Origin: Clostridia bacterium
GTDB lineage: Bacteria > Bacillota > Clostridia > Oscillospirales > CAG-272
Length of the DNA: 64,000 nucleotides
Assembly (NCBI GenBank): GCA_017446155.1
Contig: JAFSRI010000042.1
Location: 1 to 64,000, forward strand
Reading direction: 5' to 3'
Below are positions 41,524-49,227 of this stretch, one piece after another. The notes beneath the pieces were generated by a model. It was given only the letters and a program-made list of their open reading frames with translations, had not been told where the DNA came from and did not search any database. The number at the start of each line of letters is the position of its first letter. The first letter of the stretch is position 1. The position numbers and the translations under genes are program-made.

Positions 41524-42909
41524 ATGGATGAAAACAATTTGAATTTAAACAATGAACTTCCCGCAGACGATAAAGCAGTGACGGAGCAAACCGAGCCTGT
41601 TGAGGGCGTCGCCGAAAACGACGCGGCAAAAACCGAACGAAGTGAGGTTGCGCAGGCTTCTTTGGCGGAGGCAACGGAGCAAAACGAACAGAATGTATCT
41701 GTCGAAGAGGAACCGGCGGAAGATAATCAAAACGAAACAGACAAATCGACCTCGTCGGAAGAAACCTCAGCGGTTGAAGGCGACGGCGCGTTTGAAACGT
41801 ATTCCGGTGAGAAGAGCGCAAACGACGATTTGCAGGGTGAAAGCGGTTTAACGGCAGAACAAAGCTACGCTTCGGCGACGACCGACGCACCCGCAAAGGA
41901 AAAAATATCGTTCGGAAGAACGTACGGACATTTTACTTTGATATTCGGTTCGATTTTTGCATTTGTTGTTGCGGCTGTGATTTTCCAATCGGCAGCGGTG
42001 ATAATAATTCAGGCGTTTTTCCCGCAACTGATCGATTTCAGCGGGATAAATCTGCTGCTTTCGGTAATTCCGATGTATTGCGTCGGACTTCCCGTGGCGG
42101 TAATAGTATTGCTGTTCGCAAAGAAAGGTCCCGCGTGGGAAAAGCAGAGTATAACTTTCGGAAAATGGCTTAAACTGTTTTGTGTAACGGCGGCGGTGAT
42201 GTATTTGGGAAACATAGTCGGAAACATCATCAACTCATTTATTTCGTTCTTTCCCGGAACAAACATCCGCGACGTCGTGGATGAGATACTCGGCGAGGAC
42301 CCGTTCCGGCTTCCGGCGTTAATAACCGTTGTGATTGCGCCCGTGGTTGAAGAGTTGATATTCAGAAAAATGTTTATCGACAGGATGCGCGGCTACGGAG
42401 AAAAATTCGCCATATTCATTTCGGCTCTGTGCTTCGGACTGTTCCACGGAAATTTCAGCCAATTCTTCTATGCGTTCGGAATAGGACTTGTATTCGGATA
42501 CGTCTACTCGAAAACGAGAAATTTGTGGTATACCGTTTCGCTTCACGCGGCGGCAAACCTGTTCTTCGGAGTGATAAGCGCGCTTGTTGCAAATTATTCA
42601 AGCGGGCTGATTGACCTTGCGTCGGATATAATGCAAGGCGCGGACATTGCGACAGAGGAGCTTATTCCTCGGTTGGCGGGGCTCGTTCTGCCGGCGATAG
42701 TCAGGATGCTTTACTTGCTTTTGACGATAGCGCTTGTGGTTTGCGGAGTTGTGTTCTTTATCATAAGAGTGAGGAAGAAGATTTCGCTCGAACCGGCGCA
42801 TTACGAACTTGCAAGCGGAAAGCTCAGCGTAGCGGCCGTGTGGGCTAACGTCGGGTTCTGGCTTTTCGCCGTGCTGACGGTTATAACGTTTTTGTCATCA
42901 ATATTTTAA
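41524..42909 (+). CDS. CPBP-family intramembrane protease with a long acidic N-terminal tail
   Basis: 461 residues. Residues 1-125 are disordered-looking and very acidic (Glu, Asp, Ser, Thr, Gln, Asn). About eight membrane helices follow, with motif 1 EELIFRK (E276, E277), motif 2 FGLFHGN and motif 3 LHAAANL, so the CPBP active site seems complete. Position 7 of motif 1 is Lys rather than the more common Gly. The substrate is unknown. The gene directly precedes the cysteine-cluster gene (19 bases) and is likely co-transcribed with it. GGGG precedes the ATG. Confidence 0.83.
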   Translation: MDENNLNLNNELPADDKAVTEQTEPVEGVAENDAAKTERSEVAQASLAEATEQNEQNVSVEEEPAEDNQNETDKSTSSEETSAVEGDGAFETYSGEKSANDDLQGESGLTAEQSYASATTDAPAKEKISFGRTYGHFTLIFGSIFAFVVAAVIFQSAAVIIIQAFFPQLIDFSGINLLLSVIPMYCVGLPVAVIVLLFAKKGPAWEKQSITFGKWLKLFCVTAAVMYLGNIVGNIINSFISFFPGTNIRDVVDEILGEDPFRLPALITVVIAPVVEELIFRKMFIDRMRGYGEKFAIFISALCFGLFHGNFSQFFYAFGIGLVFGYVYSKTRNLWYTVSLHAAANLFFGVISALVANYSSGLIDLASDIMQGADIATEELIPRLAGLVLPAIVRMLYLLLTIALVVCGVVFFIIRVRKKISLEPAHYELASGKLSVAAVWANVGFWLFAVLTVITFLSSIF

Positions 42910-42928
42910 ATAAAGGAGATATACAATC

Positions 42929-43408
42929 ATGGGAAAAGGTTTTGGATTTCTTGCCGCTGTTGCGGCAGCGGTACTTCTCACACCGTATAACGTTGAGATA
43001 GACAAAGAAAACAACACATACAAATTCCGTTCGCTTTTGCTTAACGTAAACGTAAAGAAAGAAAAAGACGAAGAAACGAACGAAACGACTCACAACGTTG
43101 AGGTAAAGCTCGCCGGCAAGCCGACGAAAGAGGACTTTGAAACGCTTAAAACCAACGTTGCAAACGTTGCAAACGAGGGCGTGAAGAAGGCGAAAGAAAC
43201 GGTTGAAAAGGCAAAAGATTTCGCAAACAAGGCAAAGGAAAAATTCACCGAAGCCGCGGAAGAGGGCGAAGAAGAATGCTGTTGCGGCGGTGACGAGGAG
43301 TGCTGCTGCGGAGAAGAAACGGCTGAACAGGCCGAAACCGCGGAAACGACGGAGAAAACCGAGGACGTCGGCGACTTCTGCACCGAAGAAGAGGCGGCTC
43401 AGTTCTGA
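42929..43408 (+). CDS. Unknown protein with two triple-cysteine clusters
   Basis: 159 residues. A short hydrophobic N-terminus (FGFLAAVAAAVLLTPYNVEI) could be a membrane anchor or part of a fold. A charged KAKETVEKAKDFANKAKEKF-type helix follows at about 85-112. The acidic tail holds CCC at 117-119 and 125-127 plus C151, set among Glu/Asp and Gly. I do not recognise a named family. Metal binding is a guess from the cysteine clusters. AAGGAG precedes the ATG, and a strong terminator follows. Confidence 0.72.
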   Translation: MGKGFGFLAAVAAAVLLTPYNVEIDKENNTYKFRSLLLNVNVKKEKDEETNETTHNVEVKLAGKPTKEDFETLKTNVANVANEGVKKAKETVEKAKDFANKAKEKFTEAAEEGEEECCCGGDEECCCGEETAEQAETAETTEKTEDVGDFCTEEEAAQF

Positions 43409-43417
43409 AAGAACGGC

Positions 43418-43455
43418 ACGGCGGAGCGAAAAACCTCGCTCCGCCGTAAAATTTT
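43418..43455 (+). terminator. Terminator after the cysteine-cluster gene
   Basis: ACGGCGGAGCGA (43418-43429) pairs perfectly with TCGCTCCGCCGT (43436-43447), followed by AAAATTTT. Confidence 0.85.
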
Positions 43456-43468
43456 GTGAAAAAAACTA

Positions 43469-43497
43469 TTGACAAACCCGAAAAGCTATGTTATACT
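43469..43497 (+). promoter_or_regulatory. Promoter of infC-rpmI-rplT
   Basis: TTGACA (43469-43474), a 17-base spacer and TATACT (43492-43497). The leader to the infC start is about 150 bases. Confidence 0.85.
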
Positions 43498-43503
43498 TTT
43501 TGG

Positions 43504-43651
43504 GCAAAACGAAGTAAAGCGGTCCCGCTTTCACCGTACCGCACGGCGAGTTACGGTAAATAATGAACATTCCGGCACGGAGTGCGCGGAATTTTGTTGC
43601 GGCGGGAACGGTATCGTTTTCCGCTTATTTTATTTTTTGGGGGTGCCGGAT
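43504..43651 (+). promoter_or_regulatory. Structured infC leader with intrinsic terminator (probable L20-type attenuator)
   Basis: The leader has several hairpins: AAGCGG/CCGCTT near 43517-43530, ACCGT/ACGGT just after, and ATTCCG/CGGAAT around 43569-43592. The last is a terminator: 43602-43624 fold (GCGG-GAA / TTT-CCGC with a CG/CG cap) and run into TTATTTTATTTTTT (43625-43638). In Bacillus this operon is controlled by L20 through transcription attenuation in the leader; the same role here is inferred from position and structure. The competing antiterminator was not worked out. Confidence 0.65.
43602..43638 (+). terminator. Leader terminator upstream of infC
   Basis: Stem 43602-43608 with 43618-43624, plus a two-pair cap and a T-rich tail ending at the infC ribosome binding site. 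Because it lies between promoter and gene, readthrough must be regulated. Confidence 0.65.
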
Positions 43652-44173
43652 ATAAGCACGAAAGATTACCTTCTCAACGAAGAGATAAACGTTCCTCAGG
43701 TGCGCCTTATCGGCGAAGAGGGGGAACAACTCGGAATAGTCGATTCCGCAAAAGCTCGCAAGCTCGCCGAAGAAGCGGGAAGCGACCTTGTGATGATTGC
43801 ACCCACGGCACAGCCGCCGGTTTGCAGAATAATGGATTACGGCAAGTTCCGGTTTGAACGTGAAAAACGCGAAAAGGAAGCAAAGAAAAAACAGCAGGTG
43901 GTGGAAGTTAAAGAAATTCAGCTCTCGTGCAATATCGGCGAGCATGACTTCAACACCAAACTCGGCCACGCTTTGAAGTTCTTAAAAGAAGGAAACAAAG
44001 TGCGCGCGGTCGTAAAATTCAACGGAAGAAGAGAAATGCTCCACCCGGAGCTCGGCACAGCTATGATGGATAAATTCGTCGAGGCGTGCTCGGAGTTCGG
44101 CACGACGGAGAAAAAAGCGGTAATGGAAGGGCGCAAGCTCTCGCTTATAATCTCGCCCGTTGCGAAGAAGTAA
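43652..44173 (+). CDS. infC: Translation initiation factor IF-3, AUA start
   Basis: 173 residues, identical in length to Bacillus IF-3. It has [11 protein letters not shown] at the N-terminus and [15 protein letters not shown], the IF-3 signature. It binds the 30S subunit and checks the start codon. No ATG/GTG/TTG start suits: the protein begins at ATA (43652) with GGGGGTG at 43639-43645, six bases away. A GTG at 43643 overlaps that ribosome site. Rare starts (AUU) are known for infC and let IF-3 control itself. Confidence 0.92.
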
Positions 44174-44219
44174 ACAAATGCGGCTTGCCGCAAAGTCATA
44201 TCGAAAGGAAAAAATCATT

Positions 44220-44414
44220 ATGCCCAAGATCAAAACACACAGCGCGACAGCGAAAAGATTTTCCGTAACGAAAAGCGGAAGAGTAAAAATGAACAGCTCG
44301 AACCGCCGTCATAAGCTCGGCCTTAAAACACCGAAGCGCAAGAGACAGCTCAGACGCAACGCATACCTCAGCCCGTCGTTTGAAGCTACGGTAAAAACGC
44401 TCATTCAGAAGTAA
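44220..44414 (+). CDS. rpmI: 50S ribosomal protein L35
   Basis: 64 residues: [20 protein letters not shown] is the L35 signature, and the rest is basic with RRNAYLSPS. The ATG at 44220 has AAAGGAAAA upstream; an in-frame GTG-type extension to 44160 lies over the infC stop. It sits between infC and rplT, the standard order. Confidence 0.96.
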
Positions 44415-44435
44415 TTCAGCAGGAGGAATAAAGAC

Positions 44436-44795
44436 ATGGCAAGAGTAAAAGGCGCGATGATGACGCGCAAGAGAAGAAATAAAGTCCTCAAACTCGCAAA
44501 AGGTTATTGGGGCGCCAAGAGCAAACACTTCAAAATGGCTAAACAAGCCGTTATGAAGAGCGGCAACTATGCTTTCGCAGGTCGCAAACTCAAAAAGAGA
44601 GATTTCAGATCCCTTTGGATCACCAGAATTTCCGCGCAGGCAAAGGTTAACGGCGTAAACTACTCCACGCTTATGCACGGTCTTAAAGTTGCGGGCGTTT
44701 CGATCAACCGCAAGATGCTTGCAGAGCTTGCAGTAAACGATAAAGAAGCATTCGCTTCTCTCGTTGAAACAGCAAAGAACGCACTCAACAAATAA
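44436..44795 (+). CDS. rplT: 50S ribosomal protein L20
   Basis: 119 residues, standard length; [24 protein letters not shown] and the [13 protein letters not shown] motif identify it. L20 is an early 50S assembly protein and the likely repressor of its own operon through the leader upstream. AGGAGG precedes the ATG. Confidence 0.97.
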
Positions 44796-44809
44796 AATAC
44801 GAACTCTTA

Positions 44810-44838
44810 AACCAAAGCTGAAATATGCTTTGGTTTTT
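44810..44838 (+). terminator. Terminator of infC-rpmI-rplT
   Basis: AACCAAAGC (44810-44818) pairs with GCTTTGGTT (44827-44835), followed by TTTGC. Confidence 0.8.
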
Positions 44839-44890
44839 GCTAATTAAAAAGGCAAATAAAATAATCCTGATGACAATGGGGTGGCGACGT

Positions 44891-45652
44891 ATGGAAAAGA
44901 TAACAAGCAGGCAAAACCCGAAAATATCGGAGGCGTGCGCCCTTCAAAAGAAGAAATGCCGCGACGAGAGCGGAGAATTTTTCTTCGAGGGGATAAAACT
45001 CTTGCGCGAGGCAAAGCGCGAAAACGTGAATATTGTGCGGGTTTTCGTCACCGCCGCCGCCATCGACGCTTACGGGGACGAGCTTTCGGGTGAGTTTGAA
45101 ACGGTAGAGGTGAGCGACTCCGTTTTTGAGAAGTTGACGACGGAGAACGCTCCGCAGGGGGTGTTCACGGTTGCGAGGATGCTTGCTCCCAAACGAAAAC
45201 CGACAGGGCTTTCAATAATTCTCGACGCGCTCTCGGATCCGGGAAATCTCGGCACGGTGATACGCTGCGCCGACGCGTTCGGAGTGGAGAAGATTTACCT
45301 CAGCGACACGTGCGCCGACGTGTATAACCCCAAGACTGTTCGCGCGGCGATGGGATCTGTTTTCAGAGTTCCGACGGAGCGCGGAGATATTGAAAAGAAC
45401 ATAAAAGAATTGCAAAATAACGGCTATTCGGTTTACGCCGCCATGCTTGACGAAAACGCTCTGCGCGCCGAAGAAACCGAGAAGGACGGAAAGACGGCTT
45501 TTGTCATCGGCAACGAGGGGCACGGCGTGTCGAAAAGTGTGAGAGACGCTTGCGACGGCAGTGTTTTTATTCCGATGAGAGAGGACAGCGCCGAGTCGCT
45601 CAACGCCTCGGTAGCGGCGGCGATACTGATGTGGGAACATAAAAAAATTTGA
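44891..45652 (+). CDS. SpoU/TrmH-family RNA 2'-O-ribose methyltransferase
   Basis: 253 residues. An N-terminal substrate-binding domain (KITSRQNPKI ... FFFEGIKLLREA) precedes the knotted SPOUT domain with DALSDPGNLGTVIRCADAFGV and the cofactor-binding VIGNEGHGVS and N-A-S-V-A-A-A motifs. The 23S or tRNA target is not evident; it resembles the RlmB/TsnR-like clostridial 'RNA methyltransferase' downstream of rplT. The ATG at 44891 is chosen because it starts the family domain and has GGGGTGG nearby. Confidence 0.9.
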   Translation: MEKITSRQNPKISEACALQKKKCRDESGEFFFEGIKLLREAKRENVNIVRVFVTAAAIDAYGDELSGEFETVEVSDSVFEKLTTENAPQGVFTVARMLAPKRKPTGLSIILDALSDPGNLGTVIRCADAFGVEKIYLSDTCADVYNPKTVRAAMGSVFRVPTERGDIEKNIKELQNNGYSVYAAMLDENALRAEETEKDGKTAFVIGNEGHGVSKSVRDACDGSVFIPMREDSAESLNASVAAAILMWEHKKI

Positions 45653-45666
45653 CGGAGGGGAAACGG

Positions 45667-46899
45667 ATGGAACGGTTGATTTATTGGATATGGCTGTCGT
45701 TGAGATGCGGCGCCGGAAGCGAAAGCGGAACGTATCTTTTGGCACAGTTCAAAGATCCGAAAGCCGTGTATGACGCCGACGACAAGGCTTTATCGGCGGT
45801 GGGCGGAATATCGGAAGAACTGAAAAAGGCACTGTTGGACAAGGATATTGAGCTTTGTAAAAGAATACTCGATTATTGCCGCCGCACGAACGTTTCCATC
45901 ATGACTTGCGACGACACCATATATCCCGAACGGCTGCGCTCGATACACGCAAAGCCGATATTGCTTTATTACAAGGGCAAAATTCCGCAGATAGACGACA
46001 GCGTTCTCGTTGCCGTTGTGGGAACACGTTCCTGCACGCAATACGGTGAGAAAACCGCATACAAATTCGGCGCGGAGCTGGCGCAGGGCGGCGCTATCGT
46101 CGTTTCCGGCATGGCGCTCGGAATTGACGCCTATGCCGCTCGCGGCGCGCTGTCGGTCAAAGGGCACACGATAGCCGTGCTCGGATGCGGCATCGACACG
46201 GCGTACCCGCCGCAGAACAAAGACCTTATGCAGCAGATAATGATGACGGGAACGGTTATAACCGAATACGCGCCGGGAACTCAGCCGTCCGGAAAGAATT
46301 TTCCCGTGAGAAACAGAATAATATCAGGGCTATGTCAGGCTACGCTTGTGGTTGAGGCCGACAGGCACAGCGGTGCGCTTATTACGGCGGGAAGAGCCAT
46401 GTCGCAGGGACGCGACGTGTTTGCCGTTCCCGGCAGAATAGGCGAGCAGGCGAGCGAGGGTACAAACGACCTTATTCGCAACGGCGCGAAGATAGCGCTT
46501 TCGGGCAAGGATATTCTTGAAGAATATGAACTGTTGTATCCGCATAGAATATTTACCGAAAATATCTCTCAAAACCGTTTTGTCACGTCGCAGAAATTAA
46601 GAGTTGCGGCGACGGATATGAAACTCGATCAAGCGCCGCCTCCGCCGAGATATACGAAAAAGAGAACAATGCCCGCAACGCCGAAAAAGAGAAACGAGCC
46701 GGATATTTCTTATCTTACGGAGCAAGAACAGGCTGTGTTCCGTATAATGAACGGAAAAATGACCTCCGACGAAATACGCGCGGCGGCACTTGAAAACAAC
46801 ATTCCCGTGGAAACGGGGGAGCTGCTTAGCATTTTGACAACGCTTGAAATTTACGGGCTTATTTCCGCGCTTCCGGGCGGAAGTTATGAAAGGTCATAA
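45667..46899 (+). CDS. dprA: DNA-processing protein DprA
   Basis: 410 residues. The Rossmann-like DprA domain (VAVVGTRSCTQYGEK ... VSGMALGIDAYAARGAL ... GCGIDTAYPPQNKDL) binds incoming single-stranded DNA and loads RecA in transformation. A C-terminal winged-helix domain of about 70 residues follows a Pro-rich linker. The family is present in many non-competent bacteria, so competence is not proved. GGAGGGG precedes the ATG at 45667. Confidence 0.93.
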   Translation: MERLIYWIWLSLRCGAGSESGTYLLAQFKDPKAVYDADDKALSAVGGISEELKKALLDKDIELCKRILDYCRRTNVSIMTCDDTIYPERLRSIHAKPILLYYKGKIPQIDDSVLVAVVGTRSCTQYGEKTAYKFGAELAQGGAIVVSGMALGIDAYAARGALSVKGHTIAVLGCGIDTAYPPQNKDLMQQIMMTGTVITEYAPGTQPSGKNFPVRNRIISGLCQATLVVEADRHSGALITAGRAMSQGRDVFAVPGRIGEQASEGTNDLIRNGAKIALSGKDILEEYELLYPHRIFTENISQNRFVTSQKLRVAATDMKLDQAPPPPRYTKKRTMPATPKKRNEPDISYLTEQEQAVFRIMNGKMTSDEIRAAALENNIPVETGELLSILTTLEIYGLISALPGGSYERS

Positions 46900-46908
46900 A
46901 AAATTTAC

Positions 46909-46937
46909 TTGACAGAAAATGCGCGGTTGTGTATAAT
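46909..46937 (+). promoter_or_regulatory. Promoter of topA
   Basis: TTGACA (46909-46914), a 17-base spacer and TATAAT (46932-46937): perfect consensus, placed just after the dprA stop. Confidence 0.88.
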
Positions 46938-46972
46938 GGCAATCGACGCATAAGCGAAAAATATATAAGGAG

Positions 46973-47017
46973 ATGTGCCATAGGGCAATCGTGCGAAGAT
47001 GCATCATTATCTTGTGA
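46973..47017 (+). CDS. Possible 14-codon leader peptide overlapping topA
   Basis: The only strong ribosome site before topA is AAGGAG at 46967-46972. An ATG follows at once (46973) in another frame, giving MCHRAIVRRCIIIL and a TGA at 47015-47017, 16 bases inside topA. The spacing to this ATG is too short for ideal initiation, and that to topA (27 bases) too long. It may couple translation, or be meaningless. Confidence 0.25.
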   Translation: MCHRAIVRRCIIIL

Positions 47018-49227
47018 TAATTGAATCGCCGTATAAAGCGCCGGCGATAAACTCATATTTGGGAAAAGAATATTCGGTGGTGGCGTCCAAAGGTCATGTA
47101 AGGGACCTTCCGAAAAGCTCGCTTGGAGTTGACACCGAACATGATTTTACCGTAAAATACGTAACGATACAAGGCAAAGCCGAGCTGATAAATCAGCTGA
47201 AAAAAGACGTGAAAAACGCCGACAAGGTGTTCTTTGCAACCGACCCTGACCGCGAGGGCGAGGCTATCTCGTGGCATTTGGCGACGGTGTTGGGCATAAA
47301 GCCCGAGGACGCGAACAGAGTTACGTTCAACGACATAACAAGAAAAACCGTGCTTGCAGGAATAGAAAATCCGCGGGCGATAGACATGAACCTGGTAAAT
47401 TCCCAGCAGGCGAGAAGAACGCTTGACAGAATTGTGGGCTATAAATTAAGCCCTTACCTGTGGAAAACCGTGAAGAGCGGGCTTTCTGCGGGAAGAGTTC
47501 AGTCGGTGGCGACGAGGATAATAGTTGAAAGAGAAGCTGAGATAAAGGCGTTTGTTCCGAAAGAATATTGGACGGTGGACGCCTCTCTCAAAACGCAGAA
47601 AAGAAATAAGATAACGGCTCGTTTTTACGGCGACGAAAACGGCAAAATAGAACTCAACAACGAAGAGGAAGCAAATAAAATAACTTCCGCATGCGATGGC
47701 AACGACTTTAAAGTGCTTTCGCACGCAAACAACAGAAAGAGCAAATCTCCCGCGCCGCCGTTCACGACGTCTACTATGCAGCAGGAAGCGGCAAGACGGC
47801 TCGGGTTCCAGTCGAAAAAGACAATGATGGTGGCGCAGGAACTGTATGAGGGTATAAATCTCGGATCTGCTTTCGGCGGCACCCACGGTGTCATCACATA
47901 CATGAGAACCGACTCGCTGAGAATTTCCGACGAGGCGGCTGACGCGGCAAAAACCTTCATTACGGAGAATTTCGGTGCGGAATTTTATCCGTCGAAGCGC
48001 AGAGTTTATAAATCTGCTTCGTCCGCTCAGGACGCGCATGAGGCAATTCGCCCCGCGGACATGACTTTGCCGCCCGAAAAAATAAAGGGGGCGCTCTCAA
48101 ACGACCAATATAAGCTGTATAAGCTGATTTGGGACAGATTCATCGCAAGCCAAATGAAAAACGCCGAGCTTGAAATCCTTTCAGCCGACATCGGATGCGC
48201 GGGATATGTTTTCAAAACGAGCGAATATATTGTGAAATTCAAGGGATATATGCTTGTCTACGACGACAGCGATGAAAGCGACGAGCTGAAAAGCAAGTTG
48301 CCGGAACTCAGCGACGGCGAAACGCTTTTGAAAGAATCGCTTTCCGCCAAGCAGAATTTCACAGACCCGCCGGCACATTTCACCGAAGGATCGCTTATTA
48401 AGTTTCTTGAAGAAAAAGGTATCGGTCGCCCGAGCACGTACGCGCCGACCATCACCACAATCGTTTCACGCGGATACGTAAAACGCGACAAAAAAGCGCT
48501 TATCTCAACTCCGCTCGGCGAGGCGACGGTCGAAATAATGAAAAAGAACTTCCCGGAGATAGTAAACTATAAGTTTACGGCAAATATGGAGGAAGAGCTT
48601 GATAAGATTGCAAGAGGCGAAACGACGTATGAGCAGGTATTGACCGATTTCTACGGCGATTTTGAAAAGACGCTCGATAAAGCACAAGCGACGATCTCAG
48701 AGAGCAAGGTGAAAATTCCGGACGAGGAATCCGACATAATCTGCGAAAAATGCGGTAGAAAAATGGTGATAAAACACGGCAGATTCGGCGATTTCGCCGC
48801 TTGCCCCGGATACCCCGAATGTAAAAACACAAAGAAGCTCGACAAGAAGGGTACGGTTGTTGAAAAACCGAAGGAAGAACCTGAGAAAACCGACCTTAAA
48901 TGCCCGAGATGCGGCGGAGAGCTTGTTATACGTCAAAGCTCTTTCGGAAAATTCTATGCTTGTACAAACTTCCCGAAATGCAGATATACTAAGGCAATAC
49001 TTGAACCTATCGGCGTAAAATGCCCGAAATGCGGCAAAGAAATCGTAAAAGCATATGGCAGACGTAAAAATCTTTATTACCGCTGTGAAGATTACCCCGA
49101 GTGCGATTTTTCAAGCTGGGATCTTCCCACCGATAAAAAATGCCCGAAATGCGGCAAAATGCTTTTTGAAAAAGCTAAAAAAGGTCTTTATTGCGCCGAT
49201 GAAAATTGCGGATATAAAGAGTTTTAA
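46999..49227 (+). CDS. topA: DNA topoisomerase I
   Basis: 742 residues. The TOPRIM domain (VIIESPYKAPAINSYLG ... FFATDPDREGEAISWH) binds Mg2+; Y301 in VITYMRTDS is the DNA-linking tyrosine; GIGRPSTYAPTI is the toroid motif. The C-terminus has four cysteine zinc-ribbon repeats (CEKCG..., CPRCG..., CPKCG..., CPKCG...CADENCG). It relaxes negative supercoils. The N-terminal VIIESPYKAPAI differs from the usual VIVESPAKAKTI but keeps the key Glu. An in-frame TAG at 46981 limits the start to ATG 46999. Confidence 0.95.
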   Translation: MHHYLVIIESPYKAPAINSYLGKEYSVVASKGHVRDLPKSSLGVDTEHDFTVKYVTIQGKAELINQLKKDVKNADKVFFATDPDREGEAISWHLATVLGIKPEDANRVTFNDITRKTVLAGIENPRAIDMNLVNSQQARRTLDRIVGYKLSPYLWKTVKSGLSAGRVQSVATRIIVEREAEIKAFVPKEYWTVDASLKTQKRNKITARFYGDENGKIELNNEEEANKITSACDGNDFKVLSHANNRKSKSPAPPFTTSTMQQEAARRLGFQSKKTMMVAQELYEGINLGSAFGGTHGVITYMRTDSLRISDEAADAAKTFITENFGAEFYPSKRRVYKSASSAQDAHEAIRPADMTLPPEKIKGALSNDQYKLYKLIWDRFIASQMKNAELEILSADIGCAGYVFKTSEYIVKFKGYMLVYDDSDESDELKSKLPELSDGETLLKESLSAKQNFTDPPAHFTEGSLIKFLEEKGIGRPSTYAPTITTIVSRGYVKRDKKALISTPLGEATVEIMKKNFPEIVNYKFTANMEEELDKIARGETTYEQVLTDFYGDFEKTLDKAQATISESKVKIPDEESDIICEKCGRKMVIKHGRFGDFAACPGYPECKNTKKLDKKGTVVEKPKEEPEKTDLKCPRCGGELVIRQSSFGKFYACTNFPKCRYTKAILEPIGVKCPKCGKEIVKAYGRRKNLYYRCEDYPECDFSSWDLPTDKKCPKCGKMLFEKAKKGLYCADENCGYKEF

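Follow-up and report, generated by a model that had tools for sequence, protein, structure and literature searches.

A predicted AUA start codon for infC behind a probable L20 leader in a gut clostridium

The window analysed here, a stretch of 64,000 nucleotides from a gut clostridium, very likely carries a Bacillus-type infC-rpmI-rplT operon under L20 control, in which IF3 is translated from an AUA codon at position 43652. The gene, the position of its start, the family to which the leader belongs and the alternative pairings within that leader were all established by computation.

The operon and its surroundings

The genome (1.7 Mb in 58 contigs, 81.5% complete) has relatives whose titles name Clostridia and Oscillospiraceae bacteria, and the animal gut is the source of many of them. 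In the window, infC comes first, followed by rpmI and rplT on the same strand, behind a promoter from which the transcript would start at about 43504.

43469-43497, + strand: sigma-A type promoter, TTGACA-17-TATACT with an extended TG before the -10 (11 of 12 consensus bases)
43652-44173, + strand: infC, IF3, 173 aa (Pfam PF05198, IF3_N, 7e-32; PF00707, IF3_C, 3e-29)
44220-44414, + strand: rpmI, ribosomal protein L35 (Pfam L35, 1e-19)
44436-44795, + strand: rplT, encoding ribosomal protein L20, which the leader presumably binds (Pfam L20, 4e-44)

Directly 5' of the promoter, a 159-aa protein with clustered cysteines (EECCCGGDEECCCGEE; 42929-43408, + strand) is encoded, for which Pfam returned no family. 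Between this upstream gene and the promoter there is a strong inverted repeat of 12-14 pairs (43417-43448), likely a terminator. Over 41524-49227 the order on the + strand is a CAAX protease-like gene (Rce1), the infC operon, a SpoU-type rRNA methylase, DprA and topoisomerase I.

The start codon of infC

Translation of infC almost certainly begins at AUA 43652, a placement made from sequence comparison.

43639-43645, + strand: Shine-Dalgarno sequence GGGGGTG (the usual form among relatives is GGRGGTG)
43652-43654, + strand: predicted infC start codon AUA, in frame with the IF3_N and IF3_C domains and placed by comparison with relatives

The initial annotation had proposed this ATA behind a correctly spaced GGGGGTG, and the proposal is borne out by the Shine-Dalgarno sequence itself, by the 8 nt that lie between GGGGG and ATA, and by the presence of AUU, AUC or AUA (AUH) in relatives. 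The codon thus stands at an appropriate distance from the Shine-Dalgarno sequence and in frame with IF3, with no better canonical start. The resulting protein of 173 aa would match its Bacillus counterpart in length. The open frame extends 5' to 43460, and from the promoter to the IF3 domain the only canonical codons in frame are TTG 43637 and GTG 43643; the first one 3' of ATA is codon 17, already within the IF3_N domain. It had also been stated that no ATG, GTG or TTG fits. None does, the Shine-Dalgarno sequence being weak or absent for each, but the two in-frame codons had been overlooked. Because they are in frame, the window by itself does not force AUA, and the choice was decided by the AUH codon that stands at the same site across relatives.

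Starts at GTG 43643 or TTG 43637 would lengthen IF3 by 3 or 5 residues and are what a gene caller restricted to ATG, GTG and TTG would annotate. Both codons are stop-free to infC, yet such a start is very unlikely. The GTG consists of the last three bases of GGGGGTG, which leaves almost no Shine-Dalgarno sequence 5' of it, and computed pairing with the anti-Shine-Dalgarno sequence over the 22 bases upstream of each codon gives -12.1 kcal/mol for ATA as against -4.3 for GTG and +0.7 for TTG. The anti-Shine-Dalgarno sequence used was the standard one, assumed to be this organism's own, since a search of its incomplete genome with a 16S 3'-end pattern gave no match. In the nearest sister genome (G002) the closest canonical in-frame codon lies 39 nt 5' of its ATC, and in 17 related loci among the matches listed a stop falls no more than three codons upstream of AUH. 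The GTG and TTG starts were therefore rejected on pairing, on position inside the Shine-Dalgarno sequence and on the sister genome.

Preference for AUA 43652 is based on two samples. The family set holds 211 loci (L001-L211), 193 of them unique around the start; 185 family genomes had a match, and loci were taken from the matches listed (100 regions and 29 further loci), with the lowest-scoring left out. Among these matches, AUU, AUC or AUA occupies the site in 192 of the 193 unique loci. A rule that takes the in-frame codon 6-10 nt past the Shine-Dalgarno core assigned 191 of the 193 (AUU 99, AUC 52, AUA 40), and the AUU of L101, at 9 nt, was assigned by eye because a second G-run misled the rule. 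Where AUH codons stand in tandem, the one closest to the usual spacing was counted. In 50 of the 192 AUH loci, again among the matches listed, an in-frame stop lies upstream with no ATG, GTG or TTG between, and 31 of these 50 also have no canonical codon before the conserved core. The comparison of start codons across sister species, which the initial annotation had named as a check, likewise supports AUA: G002, which is 85% identical, starts with ATC and has no GTG at the corresponding place, and within the genus the four species besides that of the window start with ATC, ATC, ATA and ATC.

In the phylum-wide sample (101 genomes, with 100 loci besides that of the window, 98 of them unique), every one of the 98 unique loci carries AUH at this position. 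The rule assigned 94 of these (AUU 60, AUC 27, AUA 7) and four were assigned by eye: L222 and L225 (AUC), L298 (AUU) and L259, where the rule chose a competing TTG over an AUA at 8 nt. A canonical start is impossible between the upstream stop and the IF3 domain in 48 of the 98. The two sets share at least one locus, and their counts are not summed.

The leader

The RNA between the promoter and infC is probably a switch that senses ribosomal protein L20. At curated thresholds, Rfam gave no match anywhere in the window. With relaxed thresholds, the top match was RF00558 (L20_leader) at 43506-43638, aligned over model positions 1-127 of 127, with a score of 23.8 bits (E 0.041) that lies below the gathering threshold of 58.7 bits. 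A clade covariance model, R1, was built from 58 aligned leaders, all from outside the genus (58 of 92 non-redundant). It matches the window at 43509-43562 with 50.9 bits (E 1.2e-10), the only match with E<1 (the next has E 6.1). R1 also matches 99 of the 100 family-set loci searched, some of which were used to train it, and 35 of 100 phylum-wide loci (E up to 0.1). The leader has the architecture of the L20_leader family, with H1, H2 and a terminator 5' of infC, and it sits where the family does, ahead of infC-rpmI-rplT in a genome from the Bacillota.

43516-43531, + strand: hairpin H1, AAAGCG-GUCC-CGCUUU, 5' part of the predicted L20 site (RF00558, R1, folding, own-versus-swapped test)
43523-43529, + strand: predicted antiterminator strand 1, UCCCGCU of the H1 loop and 3' arm, pairing with 43601-43607 (segment duplex -13.2 kcal/mol)
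43533-43557, + strand: hairpin H2, ACCGU...ACGGU (RF00558, R1, own-versus-swapped energy)
43569-43592, + strand: hairpin H3, a variable spacer (folding)
43601-43607, + strand: predicted antiterminator strand 2, which is the 5' arm of the terminator (duplex energy, prefix folding)
43601-43638, + strand: predicted intrinsic terminator, stem-loop 43601-43625 and T-rich tail (RF00558, folding)

The hairpin and T-run described earlier as lying directly 5' of the ribosome site were found again, as a bulged stem at 43601-43625 of moderate stability (-11.1 kcal/mol) and a tail to 43638.

The pairings were compared between each leader's own arms and arms swapped among loci. Since H1 had been chosen partly by its pairing, the H1 pairs given by RNAalifold are biased, and the unbiased test used loci found by sequence alone. 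This rule located the element in 136 of the 193 leaders from the matches listed, and these 136, not the remaining 57, entered the H1 and H2 tests. Perfect 5-bp pairing of H1 was present in 122 of the 136 loci with their own arms (absent in 14) and in 79.3 +/- 3.6 with arms swapped, and the H2 duplex in the same loci was more stable with its own arms (-7.44 versus -5.56 +/- 0.15 kcal/mol). For the antiterminator, 167 of the 193 leaders had a recognised H1 and terminator, and their own pairing reached -9.25 kcal/mol as against -7.20 +/- 0.13 when swapped (0 of 10000 permutations). The difference held in 17 non-redundant loci (-8.39 versus -6.09 +/- 0.43 kcal/mol, 0 of 10000 permutations) and was seen again when 121 loci were picked by sequence alone (-9.13 versus -7.71 +/- 0.14 kcal/mol), and a control segment showed none (-3.00 versus -3.05).

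Antiterminator and terminator are mutually exclusive in the window, as in the L20_leader family. When prefixes of the leader are folded, H1 is predicted until 43600 and the antiterminator at 43612-43624; at 43628 the fold switches to the terminator, and from 43634 onwards, up to the full-length leader, it is the antiterminator once more. For the whole leader, the free optimum is the antiterminator form (-46.1 kcal/mol) and the form with H1 and terminator lies at -43.8 kcal/mol, a gap of about 2 kcal/mol that a bound protein could close. That the antiterminator form is the predicted minimum-energy fold has no bearing on L20.

A plain constitutive terminator, or merely a hairpin-rich 5' end, is a highly improbable account of the same region. 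It is favoured by the score below the RF00558 threshold and by the computational nature of the support for L20. It is opposed by the full-length alignment to RF00558 and the match to R1, by the co-variation of H1, H2 and the antiterminator, and by the presence of rplT in the same operon. The attenuation by L20 suggested in the initial annotation gains support from the Rfam family match, the clade model and the co-varying elements, and is the preferred reading of the leader. Least probable of all is an added translational control in which the H1/CACC segment of read-through RNA hides the Shine-Dalgarno sequence of infC: CUCC and CACC look like an anti-Shine-Dalgarno sequence, the duplex in the window reaches -6.6 kcal/mol and inhibition of infC translation by 5'-proximal sequences is reported for B. 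subtilis (PMC3997798), but own pairings are no better than swapped ones (-6.15 versus -6.26 +/- 0.08; equalled or bettered in 4646 of 5000 permutations) and GGGGG in the Shine-Dalgarno sequence shows no association with CCC in the loop (p = 1), so it was rejected for lack of covariation.

Proposed mechanism

In the L20 attenuation model, transcription would begin near 43504 and the nascent RNA would first fold H1 and H2, which may mimic the L20 site on 23S rRNA. Free L20, once bound, would keep H1 closed and allow the terminator at 43601-43638 to form, stopping transcription before the ribosome site. At low L20 levels, H1 would instead pair through its loop and 3' arm with the 5' arm of the terminator and the operon would be read, so that IF3 could be translated from AUA 43652 behind GGGGGTG. 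Because IF3 itself discriminates against non-AUG starts, its level may be subject to feedback. We infer L20 binding, termination in vivo and IF3 feedback from these elements; self-control by IF3 is suggested by the precedent in E. coli and by the almost complete avoidance of AUG at this position.

An AUG exception and consequences for annotation

L185 (family genome G160) is the sole locus with an AUG start for infC (GGAGGTTAAATGGCA) among the 193 unique loci from the matches listed, which indicates that AUG is possible for this gene. Of the 100 loci searched, L185 alone also lacks an R1 aptamer match. In its leader, a degenerate-looking copy of the aptamer and a terminator-like hairpin remain. 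One reading is that selection keeps infC off AUG throughout the phylum and that the two controls are linked, L185 having moved to AUG and no longer having a recognised L20 aptamer; we consider this unlikely. If it were true and more such cases existed, the L20 attenuator and the IF3 feedback through the start codon would be parts of one coupled circuit, kept or lost together.

The avoidance of AUG by infC is consistent across the phylum, and gene callers limited to ATG, GTG and TTG cannot annotate infC correctly. Similarly, of 40 loci sampled, the Rfam gathering threshold recovers L20_leader in the two from Caldanaerobacter and Thermoanaerobacter and misses 38, so Rfam-based genome annotation would miss most of the sampled gut clostridial leaders. 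Both are correctable annotation gaps around a type of regulation that is already known.

Comparison with known systems

The literature searched yielded no survey that covers infC start codons or the L20 leader in Clostridia, although one arXiv title concerns non-AUG genes in bacteria. In B. subtilis, infC is described as starting with ATT, L20 as stabilising the leader terminator and the H1/H2 junction as the L20 binding site (PMC6097659), and two alternative structures of the leader are reported (PMC10931766). The operon of the window has in common with B. subtilis infC-rpmI-rplT the gene order, the H1/H2 site for L20 (predicted here) and a terminator before the Shine-Dalgarno sequence, along with an alternative structure and a non-AUG infC start as these sources describe them (PMC6097659, PMC10931766). 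It differs in having AUA where B. subtilis has AUU, and in a leader that is a clade variant falling under the Rfam threshold.

The AUA start is shared with infC of S. aureus, where it is reported as a peak of retapamulin-stalled ribosomes with an extended Shine-Dalgarno sequence and self-control has been suggested (PMC13009471), whereas the AUA of the window is predicted by comparison. Listeria monocytogenes also has a non-canonical infC start, reported as fixed and experimentally confirmed (PMC13068326), although it is ATT there and ATA here. In E. coli, infC likewise has a non-AUG start, AUU, and its change to AUG is reported to abolish IF3 autocontrol (Butler 1987); L20 is described there as acting on translation of rpmI-rplT, with infC outside its control (PMC10931766), in contrast to the control of infC by L20 proposed here. 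Both layers, the non-AUG infC start and the L20 attenuator, are thus already known, and the window holds a clade variant of the leader.
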